From NCBI GenBank assembly GCA_026414995.1, contig JAOAHY010000012.1, positions 1-40,078 on the forward strand: a DNA stretch of 40,078 nucleotides, written 5' to 3'. The first letter of the stretch is position 1. Every line of letters begins with the position of its first letter. The DNA is from Caldisericia bacterium (GTDB taxonomy: Bacteria; Caldisericota; Caldisericia; B22-G15). Positions 157 to 8,701 of the stretch are shown here, in pieces. A program made the translations under genes and the position numbers. Below the pieces are notes generated by a model. It did no database searches, was not told the DNA's origin, and worked only from the letters and a program-made list of their open reading frames with translations.

Positions 157-165
<9 letters not shown>
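123..165 (+). repeat. Left arm of the 23S pre-rRNA processing stem
   Basis: This stretch is almost exactly complementary to 3198-3240 downstream of 23S. The paired arm runs about 43 bases with one bulged base, one mismatch and one G-U pair. It includes the mature helix 1 (AAGTCAAG with CTTGACTT) and extends outwards through CTCTCAACTT. Such long stems bring the 23S ends together for RNase III-type cleavage. The right arm lies in the 23S-5S spacer. Confidence 0.85.
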
Positions 166-3207
<3,042 letters not shown>

Positions 3208-3256
3208 GCTAAGTTGAGAGATCAGTATCAAATTACTAATTTTCGTTATTATTCAT

Positions 3257-3392
3257 GGGCTCTGGTGATTAAAGCGAAGGGGAAACACCCGGCTCCATTC
3301 CGAACCCGGAAGTTAAGCCCTTCAGCGCCGATGGTACTGAGGAGGGAAACCCCTCGGGAGAGTAGGTCATCGCCAGGGCCCTTTTTATTTTT
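3257..3392 (+). terminator. rRNA operon terminator built on the 5S closing stem
   Basis: GGGC at 3257-3260 pairs with GCCC at 3378-3381, continuing the 5S terminal helix outwards without a break. The stem is followed by TTTTTATTTTT (3382-3392). The intrinsic terminator therefore shares its stem with 5S. Confidence 0.75.
3261..3377 (+). rRNA. rrf: 5S ribosomal RNA
   Basis: The sequence has the 5S hallmarks: a terminal stem formed by CTGGTG (3262-3267) and CGCCAG, the core block CCATTCCGAACCCGGAAGTT, and the arm GGGAGAGTAGGTC near the 3' end. Length is about 117 bases, as is usual. It is last in the 16S-23S-5S operon, about 50 bases after 23S. Exact ends are inferred from the terminal helix. 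Confidence 0.95.
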
Positions 3393-4141: not shown

Positions 4142-5590
4142 ATGAAAAAAAGTTTGTTTTGTTTAGTGATAATAATTTTAATTTCACCTTTATTTATTGG
4201 TTTAAAATTCCAAAATCCTAAAATTTATATTGAACCACAAAATATGAGTGTTATCTCAGGAGGTTTTGGAAGTTTTGATATAAGAATTAGCAATATAACA
4301 GATCTTTATGGCGCATCTTTTGATATAAATATTCCACTTTCAAATTTAATTGTTGAAGATACATATATAAGTGATTCAAAAGATAATGAAACAAATATTT
4401 TAGTAAAAGATAAAAGAAATATAGTTTTATTAAAAGCAGTTAAACAAAATGAGAACAGAATAATTATAGGTATATCAAGAATTGGTCAAATTAATGGAAT
4501 TACAGGTTCGGGGCTTCTATTGAATGTTAAAGTAAAAGGGGGAAATGTAGGTGTTTATGATATAACATTAAACAATATTTACCTTTTTGATTCTAAAATG
4601 AGACAAATTCAAGTTGATACTATAGATGCAAAAACAAAAATAACTGTTTATCCAGTAGATTCAACACCACCAACAATAAAATTTATAAAAACACCCCCAC
4701 AAGAAACAAATCAAACTTTAAGTATAGAATTTCAATGGGAGGGTAGTGACGATAAAACTCTTCCTGAAAATTTAATATATTCATATAAGTTAGATGATTC
4801 TCCTTGGAGTGATTGGAAAAAAATAACAAAATTTTTAACACCCAATTTAAAAGAAGGTGACCACACTTTTTCTGTAAAAGCAAAAGATGAAGCAAACAAT
4901 GAATCAAATATAATTACATATACTTTTAAAATTGATATAACACCACCTATACTTGAAATATCATCTCCTTTATCGAATATTGAAGTTTTAGAAAAAATAT
5001 TAGAAATTAAAGGAAAAACTGAGCCAGGTATTACTGTTAAATCAAAAGATATTTCTGTAATTTCTGATCAACAAACAGGTGATTTTAAAATTTCATATAC
5101 TTTAAATGAAGGTGAAAATAAAATAGAAGTTAAAGCAATTGATAAAGCCGGAAATGAAACAATCAAAACATTAATAATTAGATATAAGGCAAGAACTATT
5201 ATTAGACTCCAAATTGGAAATCTTATGGCAGTTTTAAATGATAAAACAATAATTCTTGAATTAGCTCCTTTTATAGAAAATGGAAGAACATTAGTTCCAC
5301 TAAGATTTATTGCTGAATCATTTGGCGCTAAAGTAAATTGGGAACCAAAAGAACAAAAGATTACTATAACCCTTGAAACCAAAACCATAACTCTTTGGGT
5401 TGGGAAAAAGGAAGCTCTTGTAAACAATCAAAGATATTATCTTGAGGTACCTCCAAAAGTTATTGAGATTCCTGAAATTGGTGGTGGAAGAACTGTTGTT
5501 CCACTTCGTTTTGTTTCTGAAGCATTAGGTGCAAAAGTTGATTGGGATCCTGATTTACAAATAATAACAATTACATATCCAGGATATTAA
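4142..5590 (+). CDS. Secreted cohesin-like protein with Ig-like and two stalk domains
   Basis: The product has 482 residues. Residues 1-22 form a signal peptide (MKKS, then a hydrophobic run). Residues about 28-165 look like a cohesin-type beta-sandwich: repeated ISNITDLYG-type strands and GSGLLLNVKVKG, as in cohesins near SGNGTLFTI. Two Ig-like modules follow (about 175-265 and 268-346), the second with the EGENKIEVKAIDKAGN pattern of glucodextranase-type Ig domains. Residues 360-480 hold two copper-amine-oxidase N-terminal (stalk) repeats, each with RTLVPLRF or RTVVPLRF followed by an E-alGAKVdW motif. Stalk domains are common on secreted proteins of anaerobes. A strong AGGAGG site (about 4131-4136) precedes the ATG. 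The next secreted protein follows after 12 bases. The role is inferred to be envelope or extracellular scaffolding; no catalytic domain is seen. Confidence 0.75.
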   Translation: MKKSLFCLVIIILISPLFIGLKFQNPKIYIEPQNMSVISGGFGSFDIRISNITDLYGASFDINIPLSNLIVEDTYISDSKDNETNILVKDKRNIVLLKAVKQNENRIIIGISRIGQINGITGSGLLLNVKVKGGNVGVYDITLNNIYLFDSKMRQIQVDTIDAKTKITVYPVDSTPPTIKFIKTPPQETNQTLSIEFQWEGSDDKTLPENLIYSYKLDDSPWSDWKKITKFLTPNLKEGDHTFSVKAKDEANNESNIITYTFKIDITPPILEISSPLSNIEVLEKILEIKGKTEPGITVKSKDISVISDQQTGDFKISYTLNEGENKIEVKAIDKAGNETIKTLIIRYKARTIIRLQIGNLMAVLNDKTIILELAPFIENGRTLVPLRFIAESFGAKVNWEPKEQKITITLETKTITLWVGKKEALVNNQRYYLEVPPKVIEIPEIGGGRTVVPLRFVSEALGAKVDWDPDLQIITITYPGY

Positions 5591-5602
5591 TTAGGAGGAG
5601 AA

Positions 5603-8600
5603 ATGAAAAATAAATTATTATTAAACCTTTTTATTTTAATTTTATTTTTTGGTTTAACAAACATTAATGTTTACGGAAATTTAAAACAAACATCTTCTTG
5701 GACAACTTTTATGAAAGATTCAAGGCATACTGGTTTAGCAGATATAGAAATAGATCCTAATAAATTACCAAAAACAGACGATCCGGTTGCTAAAAGTGAA
5801 TTATCTACTAATTCGAAATCTTCACCAATTGTAGCAAATGGTTTTGTATATGTTGGAGACGCTTCAGGTAAAATATATGCATTCAGTATAAATGATGCAA
5901 AAAATGTTATTGTTTCTGGTGGTAATTGGCAACCAAAATGGACTTATCAAACCCCTAATATTATTAACGGTTCACCTCTTTATTATAATGGAAAAATTTA
6001 TGTTTGCTCAGGTGGTGATGTTAATAAAACAAGTGGTATTTATGCTATAAATGCTTTAACAGGTCAAAAAATTTGGGAGTTTTCAGATTTAAACCAACCT
6101 ACAATTTTTAGAGGGCAAGCAGAGGGATCTCCTATAGTTGCTGAAAATAGAATTATTTTTGCAACAAATGGGATTGAATCATATGTATATGCATTAGACC
6201 CAGAAACAGGAGGTCTTATTTGGAGATTTCCTCTTTCAAACCATGGAGTAAAAGGATCACCATGCTTTCTTGGAGGTTCAGTTTATGTTTTAACTTTTGA
6301 TGGTTTTATATACGCAATAGATATATTAAGTGGTTCTTCACCCATTTCACCATATAAACCAACAGGTATATCAGCATTCCAAAATTATTCATCAATTTCA
6401 ACTGATGGAAATTATCTTTATATACCTGTAAAATCTCAATACTCCTTTGAAAATGGTAAAATAGTTTTTCTAACAACACTTCTCTCATTTGTTAGAGAGT
6501 TTTCTACTAATAGTCATTTTTCAGCAACTGCAGCTATTGGTGATGATTCAATTTATATTGGTGATGAACTTGGTAGATTTTATTCGATTGAAAAAACTAC
6601 AGGTACTATAAGGGGTGGTTTTCCTTTTCAAACAGGTGGAAAAATAGAGAGTTCAGCTGCAATTTCAGGAAATTATATTTATTTTGGTTCAAACGACAAA
6701 AAAATTTATGGATTAAACAGAAGAACTGGTCAAAAATTATGGGAATATGAAACTCAAGGTGAAATTCAATCATCACCAGCAATCGCAGAAGGTGGTTTAT
6801 TTTTTGTGTCGCAAGATCATTATTTATATGCATTTTTTGAAAATGATTTTGATATAAATATATCTCCTGATAGTCAAGTAACATATGTTGGAGGTGAAGT
6901 TACTTTTTCTATTAATATTTTACCTTTTAGCAATTTCTCTGGTAGCGTAGAATTATTTCTTGAAAATGCACCATCTAATTTAATTTATAAATTTGAACCT
7001 AAAGTACTAACAGATCAAGTTAAAAGTTCAACATTAAAAATAAATATTCCTGAAGGTGTTAATGCTGGAACTTATAATATGAAAATTGTAGCTAGAAGCT
7101 TAATTTCTAGAAGATCAAAAAATATAAGACTATCAGTTAATGTTCAACCATATTTTTCATTAAATGTTAATCCTGAAAAAGGAGAGGTATTTATAGGTGA
7201 TGATGAATTTATTTTTAATGTATCTTTCTCTGCATATGGTGGATTTACAGATACTATTTCATTATCAATAGAGAATCCACCTTCTGGAATTCAATATGAA
7301 TTTAATCCTCAAACAATATCTATATCAAACCCTAATTCTAAACTTACTGTTAGAGCTATATTGGCAACAATTCCCCAATCATACACTTTAAGAATAAAAG
7401 GTATAAGTGGCTCAATAATAAGAACAAAAGATGTGACTTTAATTGTAAAGCCACAAGTAGAAGGTTCGTTTGTGATTAATGTTTCAAATGTTTTAAATAA
7501 TATTTATCAAGGTGAAACAGGTATTTTTAGAATATCTCTTGATGGAATAGGTGGTTTTAATACAAAAGTTAAATTGATTTTATTAAATCCCCCACCCAAT
7601 AGTGAAGTTAGATTTTCTCCACAGGAGATATTTCCTGGTCAAACATCTACTTTAACAATTACAACATCAGATACAACACCTGCTAATTCATATTTATTGA
7701 CACTTGTTGGTAGAGGTGGAGGTAAAAGTTTTACTATAACCATTAATTTAACAGTATTAGTAAAACCAACAGGTGATTTTAAAATTGAAATTGAACCCCC
7801 ATTTGAGAGAAATGTTACTAAAGGAGGCACTTTATTTTATATAGTTAAAGTAAAAAGAGATAATATTTTTAAAGATAATGTCAATCTTAAACTAGAAATT
7901 CAAGACATATCAATGCCACAAGGATTAACTTATAGTTTTTCACCAGAAACAATTCCTTATGTAATTGATACTTCTTATCTTAAAATAGAATTTCCAAATA
8001 ATATAAATTCAGGAACTTATAAATTTGTGATTAAGGGTGAAAGTGGGAGTAAAATTAGAGTTCAAAATATAATTGTCTCTGTTTATGATCAAGGAGATAC
8101 AAATATTTCTTTATTGCCATCACAGATTAATGTAACAAACGGCGAACAATTTAATGTTGATATAAATATAAACAATGTTACAAATCTAGTATCACTAAAT
8201 TTGTATATTATTTTTGATCCCTCTCTAATTCAGGTTGAAGAAATTAAATTAGGAAATTTCTTATCAAGTGATAATATTACTCCTATTTTTTCATATAAAA
8301 TTTATAATCTTGAAGGTTATTTGATTTTACAAGGCGTTAGACCTCAAATAAAAGGTGTTAGTGGAAATGGTACTCTTTTTACAATAACATTTAGAAGTAT
8401 AAAAGAAGGGGATCTCAATTTAAAAATAGCAAATTTAAATTTATATAACACAATACCTAATTATATTCCATGTAAAGTATATACTAATAATATAAAAATA
8501 TCAGCATCAGGTGGAGTAAAAGGTGATGTTAATGGAGATAAAATAGTTAATGGTTTAGATTTAATACTTCTAATGCAAGCTTTTGGTTCAACTCCAAAAG

Positions 8601-8701
8601 ATCAAAATTGGAATCAGAATTGCGATTTTAATGGTGATTTAATTATTAATGGAATAGATTTAATAATCTTAGCCCAAAATTGGGGAAAAGTAATACCATA
8701 A
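5603..8701 (+). CDS. Secreted PQQ-type beta-propeller with Ig-like, cohesin-like and dockerin domains
   Basis: The product has 1032 residues with a signal peptide (1-25). Residues about 65-415 carry at least seven PQQ-like blades, recognisable as SSPIVANGFVYVGD, GSPIVAENRIIF, IYFGSNDKKIYGL and TGQKLWEYE. About 418-830 hold four Ig-like repeats, each starting with F-I-V-P-like strands and ending in a V-K-P or V-Q-P linker. About 833-955 form a cohesin-like module (NVTNGEQFNVDININN, SGNGTLFTITF). The C terminus (974-1032) is a dockerin with two duplicated calcium-binding loops, GDVNGDKIVNGLDLILL and CDFNGDLIINGIDLIIL. Having a cohesin-like module and a dockerin in one chain, beside another cohesin-like protein, suggests self- or partner-assembly at the cell surface. 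No enzyme domain is seen. An AGGAGG site precedes the ATG and the gene is translationally close to its neighbour. Confidence 0.8.
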   Translation: MKNKLLLNLFILILFFGLTNINVYGNLKQTSSWTTFMKDSRHTGLADIEIDPNKLPKTDDPVAKSELSTNSKSSPIVANGFVYVGDASGKIYAFSINDAKNVIVSGGNWQPKWTYQTPNIINGSPLYYNGKIYVCSGGDVNKTSGIYAINALTGQKIWEFSDLNQPTIFRGQAEGSPIVAENRIIFATNGIESYVYALDPETGGLIWRFPLSNHGVKGSPCFLGGSVYVLTFDGFIYAIDILSGSSPISPYKPTGISAFQNYSSISTDGNYLYIPVKSQYSFENGKIVFLTTLLSFVREFSTNSHFSATAAIGDDSIYIGDELGRFYSIEKTTGTIRGGFPFQTGGKIESSAAISGNYIYFGSNDKKIYGLNRRTGQKLWEYETQGEIQSSPAIAEGGLFFVSQDHYLYAFFENDFDINISPDSQVTYVGGEVTFSINILPFSNFSGSVELFLENAPSNLIYKFEPKVLTDQVKSSTLKINIPEGVNAGTYNMKIVARSLISRRSKNIRLSVNVQPYFSLNVNPEKGEVFIGDDEFIFNVSFSAYGGFTDTISLSIENPPSGIQYEFNPQTISISNPNSKLTVRAILATIPQSYTLRIKGISGSIIRTKDVTLIVKPQVEGSFVINVSNVLNNIYQGETGIFRISLDGIGGFNTKVKLILLNPPPNSEVRFSPQEIFPGQTSTLTITTSDTTPANSYLLTLVGRGGGKSFTITINLTVLVKPTGDFKIEIEPPFERNVTKGGTLFYIVKVKRDNIFKDNVNLKLEIQDISMPQGLTYSFSPETIPYVIDTSYLKIEFPNNINSGTYKFVIKGESGSKIRVQNIIVSVYDQGDTNISLLPSQINVTNGEQFNVDININNVTNLVSLNLYIIFDPSLIQVEEIKLGNFLSSDNITPIFSYKIYNLEGYLILQGVRPQIKGVSGNGTLFTITFRSIKEGDLNLKIANLNLYNTIPNYIPCKVYTNNIKISASGGVKGDVNGDKIVNGLDLILLMQAFGSTPKDQNWNQNCDFNGDLIINGIDLIILAQNWGKVIP

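Follow-up and report, generated by a model that had tools for sequence, protein, structure and literature searches.

Two neighboring genes in the window analyzed here (a stretch of 40,078 nucleotides on contig 12 of the 1.27 Mb genome of an uncultured member of Caldisericia) probably encode a surface-anchored cohesin receptor, P0001, and an adaptor, P0002, of a cellulosome-like system that displays peptidases. Since the dockerin-bearing enzymes of this genome and of the class digest protein and not cellulose, the pair probably belongs to a surface protein-digestion complex. The two open reading frames (ORFs) share one frame, are separated by 12 bases, and have the positions given in a preliminary description of this DNA. 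Both proteins begin with a hydrophobic, signal-peptide-like stretch (read from the sequence by eye) and appear to be secreted. Their features are the following.

4142..5590, + strand: P0001, 482 aa, apparently secreted cohesin+stalk protein ('CU', anchor-type), with an N-terminal hydrophobic signal-like segment (ORF, Pfam, class HMMs)
4211..4657, + strand: P0001 predicted cohesin module, residues 24-172 (leave-clade-out HMM, AlphaFold2, Foldseek, own-genome profile search)
4658..5200, + strand: P0001, two Ig-like spacer domains, Y_Y_Y at 205-266 and Glucodextran_B at 269-346 (Pfam)
5201..5587, + strand: P0001 C-terminal two-repeat Cu_amine_oxidN1 (PF07833) stalk, proposed surface anchor (Pfam, internal repeat)
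5603..8701, + strand: P0002, 1032 aa, apparently secreted propeller-Ig4-cohesin-dockerin protein ('CD', adaptor-type) (ORF, Pfam, class HMMs)
5690..6841, + strand: P0002 PQQ/BamB-type beta-propeller, residues ~30-413 (PQQ_2 and Beta-prop_ACSF4 in Pfam; BamB-like in NCBIfam)
6842..8089, + strand: P0002, four Ig-like repeats, residues 414-829 (internal repeat test)
8096..8506, + strand: P0002 predicted cohesin module (PF00963; 8102-8503 by own-genome profile; AlphaFold2 and Foldseek)
8519..8698, + strand: P0002 predicted type I dockerin with two intact calcium loops (PF00404; loop inspection)

The preliminary description had proposed cohesin-like modules in both proteins, with structure prediction of the modules alone as a check, and AlphaFold2 models compared by Foldseek returned cohesin folds and not ordinary Ig folds. 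The N-terminal module of P0001 had no Pfam match at E<=1 and was therefore tested in three ways: with an HMM, with a profile against the PDB, and with a structural model submitted to Foldseek. An HMM of Caldisericia cohesins from outside the P0001 clade matched residues 39-161 at 47.6 bits; the best score among 2000 shuffles in the same test was 8.9 bits. One-sequence phmmer gave no match in the PDB, and the cohesin family profile recovered cohesins there, the best being 2xdh at 2.2e-13. The AlphaFold2 model (pLDDT 96.9) had cohesins or cohesin-like modules as all of its first 46 Foldseek matches in the PDB, some of them modules inside larger scaffoldin constructs, with E values down to 1.1e-9. 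The non-cellulosomal Archaeoglobus cohesin 2xdh, which is among the top Foldseek matches, is one of the nearest relatives of the module. Judged by profile and predicted structure, the module is a cohesin fold. An ordinary Ig domain at this N-terminus was rejected on the leave-clade-out HMM, the model and Foldseek.

The Glucodextran_B match of P0001 is an Ig-like accessory domain and no carbohydrate-active enzyme domain. The two stalk repeats that had been noticed in this 482-residue protein correspond to the two-repeat PF07833 domain (residues 365-477, E 8.9e-47 in Pfam; positions 5231-5572 in the own-genome search), the halves of which align at a score of 119 against a shuffled maximum of 40.

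For P0002, Pfam and the repeat test agree with the earlier reading of a PQQ-type propeller (PQQ_2, 1.3e-25) followed by four Ig-like repeats (first residues 414, 517, 620, and 724), whose mutual similarity exceeds that of shuffles (z 5.4-16.9). Pfam places Cohesin at residues 846-931 (27.0 bits, cut-off 24.1) and, 16 residues beyond the cohesin module, a dockerin whose Dockerin_1 match at residues 973-1025 reaches 36.9 bits (cut-off 22.9). The two calcium loops of this dockerin, DVNGDKIVNGLD and DFNGDLIINGID, are both intact, as had been described, and the repeats resemble each other (NGLD / NGID); by its sequence it is a dockerin with duplicated calcium-binding loops. The AlphaFold2 model of the cohesin-dockerin piece (pLDDT 94.7, pTM 0.74) matched cellulosomal cohesins and scaffoldins plus 2xdh in Foldseek. 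Both cohesins of the window thus qualify as cohesin folds on predicted structure and on profile (Pfam for P0002, the HMM for P0001). No carbohydrate-active domain, as had been stated, and no other enzyme domain was found by Pfam or NCBIfam in either protein, so the pair by itself is not a cellulosome.

The inventory of the host genome, built from profile searches plus fetched regions, supplied the genome-wide module count that had also been suggested, and it is small: only five cohesins (family profile) and four dockerins (above the Pfam cut-off). Besides P0002, the dockerin proteins are one S8 subtilase with a PA domain (Peptidase_S8; contig 28, truncated by the contig end), and two gingipain-like C25 peptidases (Peptidase_C25; contigs 15 and 17), both of which keep the His-Gly and Ser-Cys motifs. 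One cohesin each is present in P0001, P0002, the S8 subtilase, a protein of 377 aa, and a protein with an NHL propeller, and PF07833 is C-terminal in all of these except P0002 and the subtilase. The peptidase of contig 15 also has a very weak cohesin-like stretch (1e-7 with an iterated HMM that included it as a seed), which is outside the five counted. Cellulosome membership was rejected on this host-genome set, in which none of the four dockerin proteins (S8, C25, C25, propeller) is a CAZyme, the Pfam matches of the cohesin proteins include no carbohydrate-binding module (CBM), and no multi-cohesin scaffoldin is present.

CU-type cohesin proteins of the host and of the class carry a C-terminal PF07833 where cellulosomal ones have SLH. 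The domain is among the commonest modules of extracellular-looking proteins in this genome, with 26 matches against four SLH frames, and no amine oxidase catalytic domain was seen in the host PF07833 proteins scanned. A surfaceome report noted it in surface and peptidoglycan-hydrolase proteins (PMC4137172). We infer envelope anchoring from that report together with the abundance of the domain, its C-terminal position, and a fusion to SpoIID described below; the stalk of P0001 is accordingly named a putative envelope anchor. One PF07833 carrier (L074:2453-11770) is 3105 aa long.

The same modules recur across the class. A dockerin match was present in 49 of the 61 genomes searched, most class members among them, and in none of the five genomes of the same phylum that fall outside the class. 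Regions were fetched from ~20 genomes and their proteins sorted by HMMs for cohesin (C), dockerin (D), and stalk (U), which gave 133 cohesin/dockerin proteins: 57 CD, 44 CU, 31 D, and a single UC, in which the stalk precedes the cohesin. Dockerin and stalk occurred together in 0 of these 133 proteins, with a Fisher p of 1.5e-36 that overstates certainty because the regions were chosen for Pfam matches, some entries are fragments, and the genomes are related and not independent. A later sample of 22 proteins comprised 11 CU, 5 CD, 3 D, 1 UC, 1 truncated by a contig end, and 1 exception, a protein of 1560 aa that combines two cohesins with half a dockerin and a stalk (L145:1660-6342). This exception weakens an absolute rule that dockerin and stalk are never together; the two end modules are almost never found in one protein. 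No other multi-cohesin, scaffoldin-like protein was encountered in the class.

In nearly all sampled proteins, 0-10 residues separate the end of the stalk or dockerin from the C-terminus, and the linker between cohesin and dockerin measures 13-23 aa across sampled CD proteins. The order is reversed in L101:5935-9078 and L152:4860-8048, where a stalk is followed by a C-terminal cohesin; the L101 gene overlaps a dockerin-propeller gene, and PEGA domains were seen in L101. In L102:4786-6993 and L124:3869-6130 the dockerin lies mid-protein, with an esterase/S9-like hydrolase on one side and DUF11-type repeats on the other (Pfam, for L102).

Cargo was assigned from similarity clusters and a Pfam/NCBIfam scan of their representatives. 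By these sequence assignments, the dockerin cargo of the class consists of peptidases (S8, C25, M6, M28) plus a few propellers. The largest cluster of dockerin proteins holds 47 S8 subtilases. Further clusters hold 12 C25 peptidases (one member being a CU protein joined by similarity), 7 M6 metalloproteases (the one scanned fell below the NCBIfam cut-off yet has HExxH), and 3 M28 aminopeptidases, and the esterase/S9-like pair with an internal dockerin forms a group of its own. Propellers of the P0002 kind form a 15-member cluster, 13 of them with a dockerin. S8 peptidases account for most CD proteins of the class, and no carbohydrate-active domain was found in any dockerin cargo representative scanned across the class.

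The regions that were read completely contain 16 cases of a CU gene directly beside a CD gene on the same strand, and no such case of two CU genes. One row (L107) has the order CD-D-CU and encodes an S8 subtilase (by cluster), a C25 peptidase (Pfam), and an NHL protein (by cluster). Relatives in the same genus and family keep the P0001-P0002 pair, and more distant versions of it occur in three further families, in one of which the P0001-like CU partner is fused to SpoIID, a peptidoglycan lytic domain (L077:6777-9746). P0001 and P0002 are an adjacent non-CAZyme cohesin/dockerin gene pair of the type known from Archaeoglobus fulgidus, in which the products of the neighboring ORF2376 and ORF2375 form a strong cohesin-dockerin binding pair (PMC9705933).

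How the parts would work together can be outlined. The C-terminal stalk of P0001 would hold this protein at the envelope, with its cohesin displayed on the Ig spacers, and the dockerin of P0002, the product of the next gene, would plug into that cohesin, a step suggested by gene adjacency and by the A. fulgidus precedent (PMC9705933). The cohesin of P0002 would then be a socket for another dockerin protein, which may be one of the C25 peptidases (contigs 15 and 17), the S8 subtilase (contig 28), or another CD protein. The propeller and Ig repeats of P0002 may serve as spacers or as substrate-holding parts. By type, CU proteins would be anchored receptors, D proteins terminal cargo, and CD proteins cargo that also offers a socket, so that a chain could form without a multi-cohesin scaffold. 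The step from P0002 to the peptidases is more weakly inferred than that from P0001 to P0002. Dockerin contact positions 10/11 vary with cargo (GL/GI, GV/GL, LI/GI, SE/AE), and several specificities may therefore coexist, in which case P0002 may not bridge to peptidases. Given that the host genome has no multi-cohesin scaffoldin, multi-enzyme clustering would be limited, and since P0002 has no peptidase of its own, its role is the least certain.

Extended to the whole class, this reading describes an envelope-anchored, protein-degrading complex (a 'peptidosome') in which PF07833 stalk proteins would serve as scaffoldin anchors of a new kind, and CD proteins, whether peptidases or propellers, would carry both plug and socket and chain without a multi-cohesin scaffoldin. 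We hold this broader proposal tentatively, at somewhat under an even chance. Caldisericum exceeded 30% of reads on tryptone and yeast extract with CO2/H2, and Caldiserica made up 0.17% of reads with H2/CO2 alone and 3.2% with tryptone and yeast extract alone (PMC6770359); because reads were low when the substrates were given separately, these cultures support peptide use weakly.

The preliminary description was borne out in taking the modules for real cohesins and a dockerin, without an enzyme and outside the cellulosome, and it lacked the peptidase context of genome and class and the type of anchor. Its proposal of a surface lattice or head-to-tail polymer deserves comparison with the anchor-and-adaptor reading. 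As a structural polymer, P0002 would join head to tail, each dockerin bound to the cohesin of the following copy, with P0001 as a cap at the cell, and the resulting filament or surface layer would have nothing to do with proteolysis. Cohesin and dockerin do share one chain with a short linker, the calcium-loop motifs are symmetric (NGLD/NGID), and an enzyme-free protein of propeller and Ig repeats fits a structural role. However, the prevalence of S8 peptidases among the CD proteins of the class means that this arrangement is not confined to structural proteins, and the other cohesins and dockerins of the genome are available for cross-binding. We consider such a polymer unlikely. Head-to-tail linkage of CD proteins as such may occur, a surface lattice built from P0001 and P0002 has no specific support, and an anchor and adaptor that display peptidases is the better-supported reading.

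It is quite improbable that the modules do not dock at all, the cohesin being a generic beta-sandwich spacer and the dockerin a calcium-stabilized C-terminal cap. The cohesins are divergent, that of P0001 lying below Pfam detection and some CD cohesins being very weak (E 1e-5 to 1e-4 with the class HMM), but both calcium loops are kept in 80 of 88 dockerins, and the rule by which a cohesin is followed by a dockerin or a stalk, together with the CU/CD gene pairing, is hard to explain without interaction. The PQQ_2 and BamB-like matches could also mean that P0002 acts through its propeller, either as an oxidoreductase of PQQ type or as an assembly factor like BamB, and that docking merely localizes the propeller. 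This we regard as very improbable, as the scores are far under the NCBIfam equivalog cut-offs (BamB 86.9 against 285, PQQ alcohol dehydrogenase 60 against 480) and no cofactor or haem domain was seen in P0002; a PQQ enzyme was rejected on these scores.

With the cellulosome (Clostridium thermocellum, Acetivibrio, and a mucinolysome variant, PMC12997984), the anchor-and-adaptor system would share cohesin and type I dockerin folds, the two calcium loops, and the roles of anchor, adaptor, and dockerin-bearing enzyme. It differs in that the Caldisericia cargo is peptidases and not carbohydrate-active enzymes, that the host-genome set is without multi-cohesin scaffoldin or carbohydrate-binding module, and that PF07833 replaces SLH on cohesin proteins. 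The A. fulgidus pair consists of consecutively numbered, non-cellulosomal ORFs that supply a cohesin and a dockerin with demonstrated binding, and its cohesin 2xdh is the best PDB profile match of the Caldisericia cohesin family. The Caldisericia partners, however, carry stalks, propellers, and peptidases and show a class-wide division into putative anchor, adaptor, and cargo (the comparison with A. fulgidus covering its cohesin and dockerin).

In ANME archaea, non-cellulosomal cohesin/dockerin proteins have likewise been proposed to tether functional proteins to the surface of the cell; there, dockerin cargo commonly consists of transporter binding proteins, S-layer proteins carry dockerins, and a scaffold has up to five cohesins (PMC9012536), whereas in Caldisericia the cargo is peptidases and a protein nearly always has one cohesin. 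Dockerin-bearing subtilisins, S8 proteases fused to a dockerin, occur in scattered prokaryote genomes as single architectures (PMC2605481), to which the Caldisericia set adds partners with cohesin and stalk and peptidase cargo of several families. Non-cellulosomal cohesin/dockerin proteins and dockerin subtilisins are already known. The literature searched describes no class-wide set that combines peptidase cargo with stalk anchors, and a literature search on names in 'Caldiseric' only returned no paper on Caldiserica/Caldisericota and dockerins.

The role of non-cellulosomal cohesins and dockerins is left open in the cited work (PMC9012536 and its references). Nearly all-peptidase cargo, one type of anchor domain, and paired genes suggest a concrete and testable answer. 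If it is correct, the principle of the cellulosome would extend from sugars to proteins, the feeding of a poorly studied lineage would be explained, and a surface role would be suggested for PF07833, a domain named for an enzyme absent from its carriers here. Thermophilic members could also supply heat-stable docking pairs for protein engineering.

In the window, a 23S-5S rRNA pair (158-3378) and an alanine-racemase-N/YggS-like gene lie 5' of P0001, and a UvrD-type helicase gene lies 3' of P0002. The two rRNA genes have ~50% GC in a genome region of ~25% GC.
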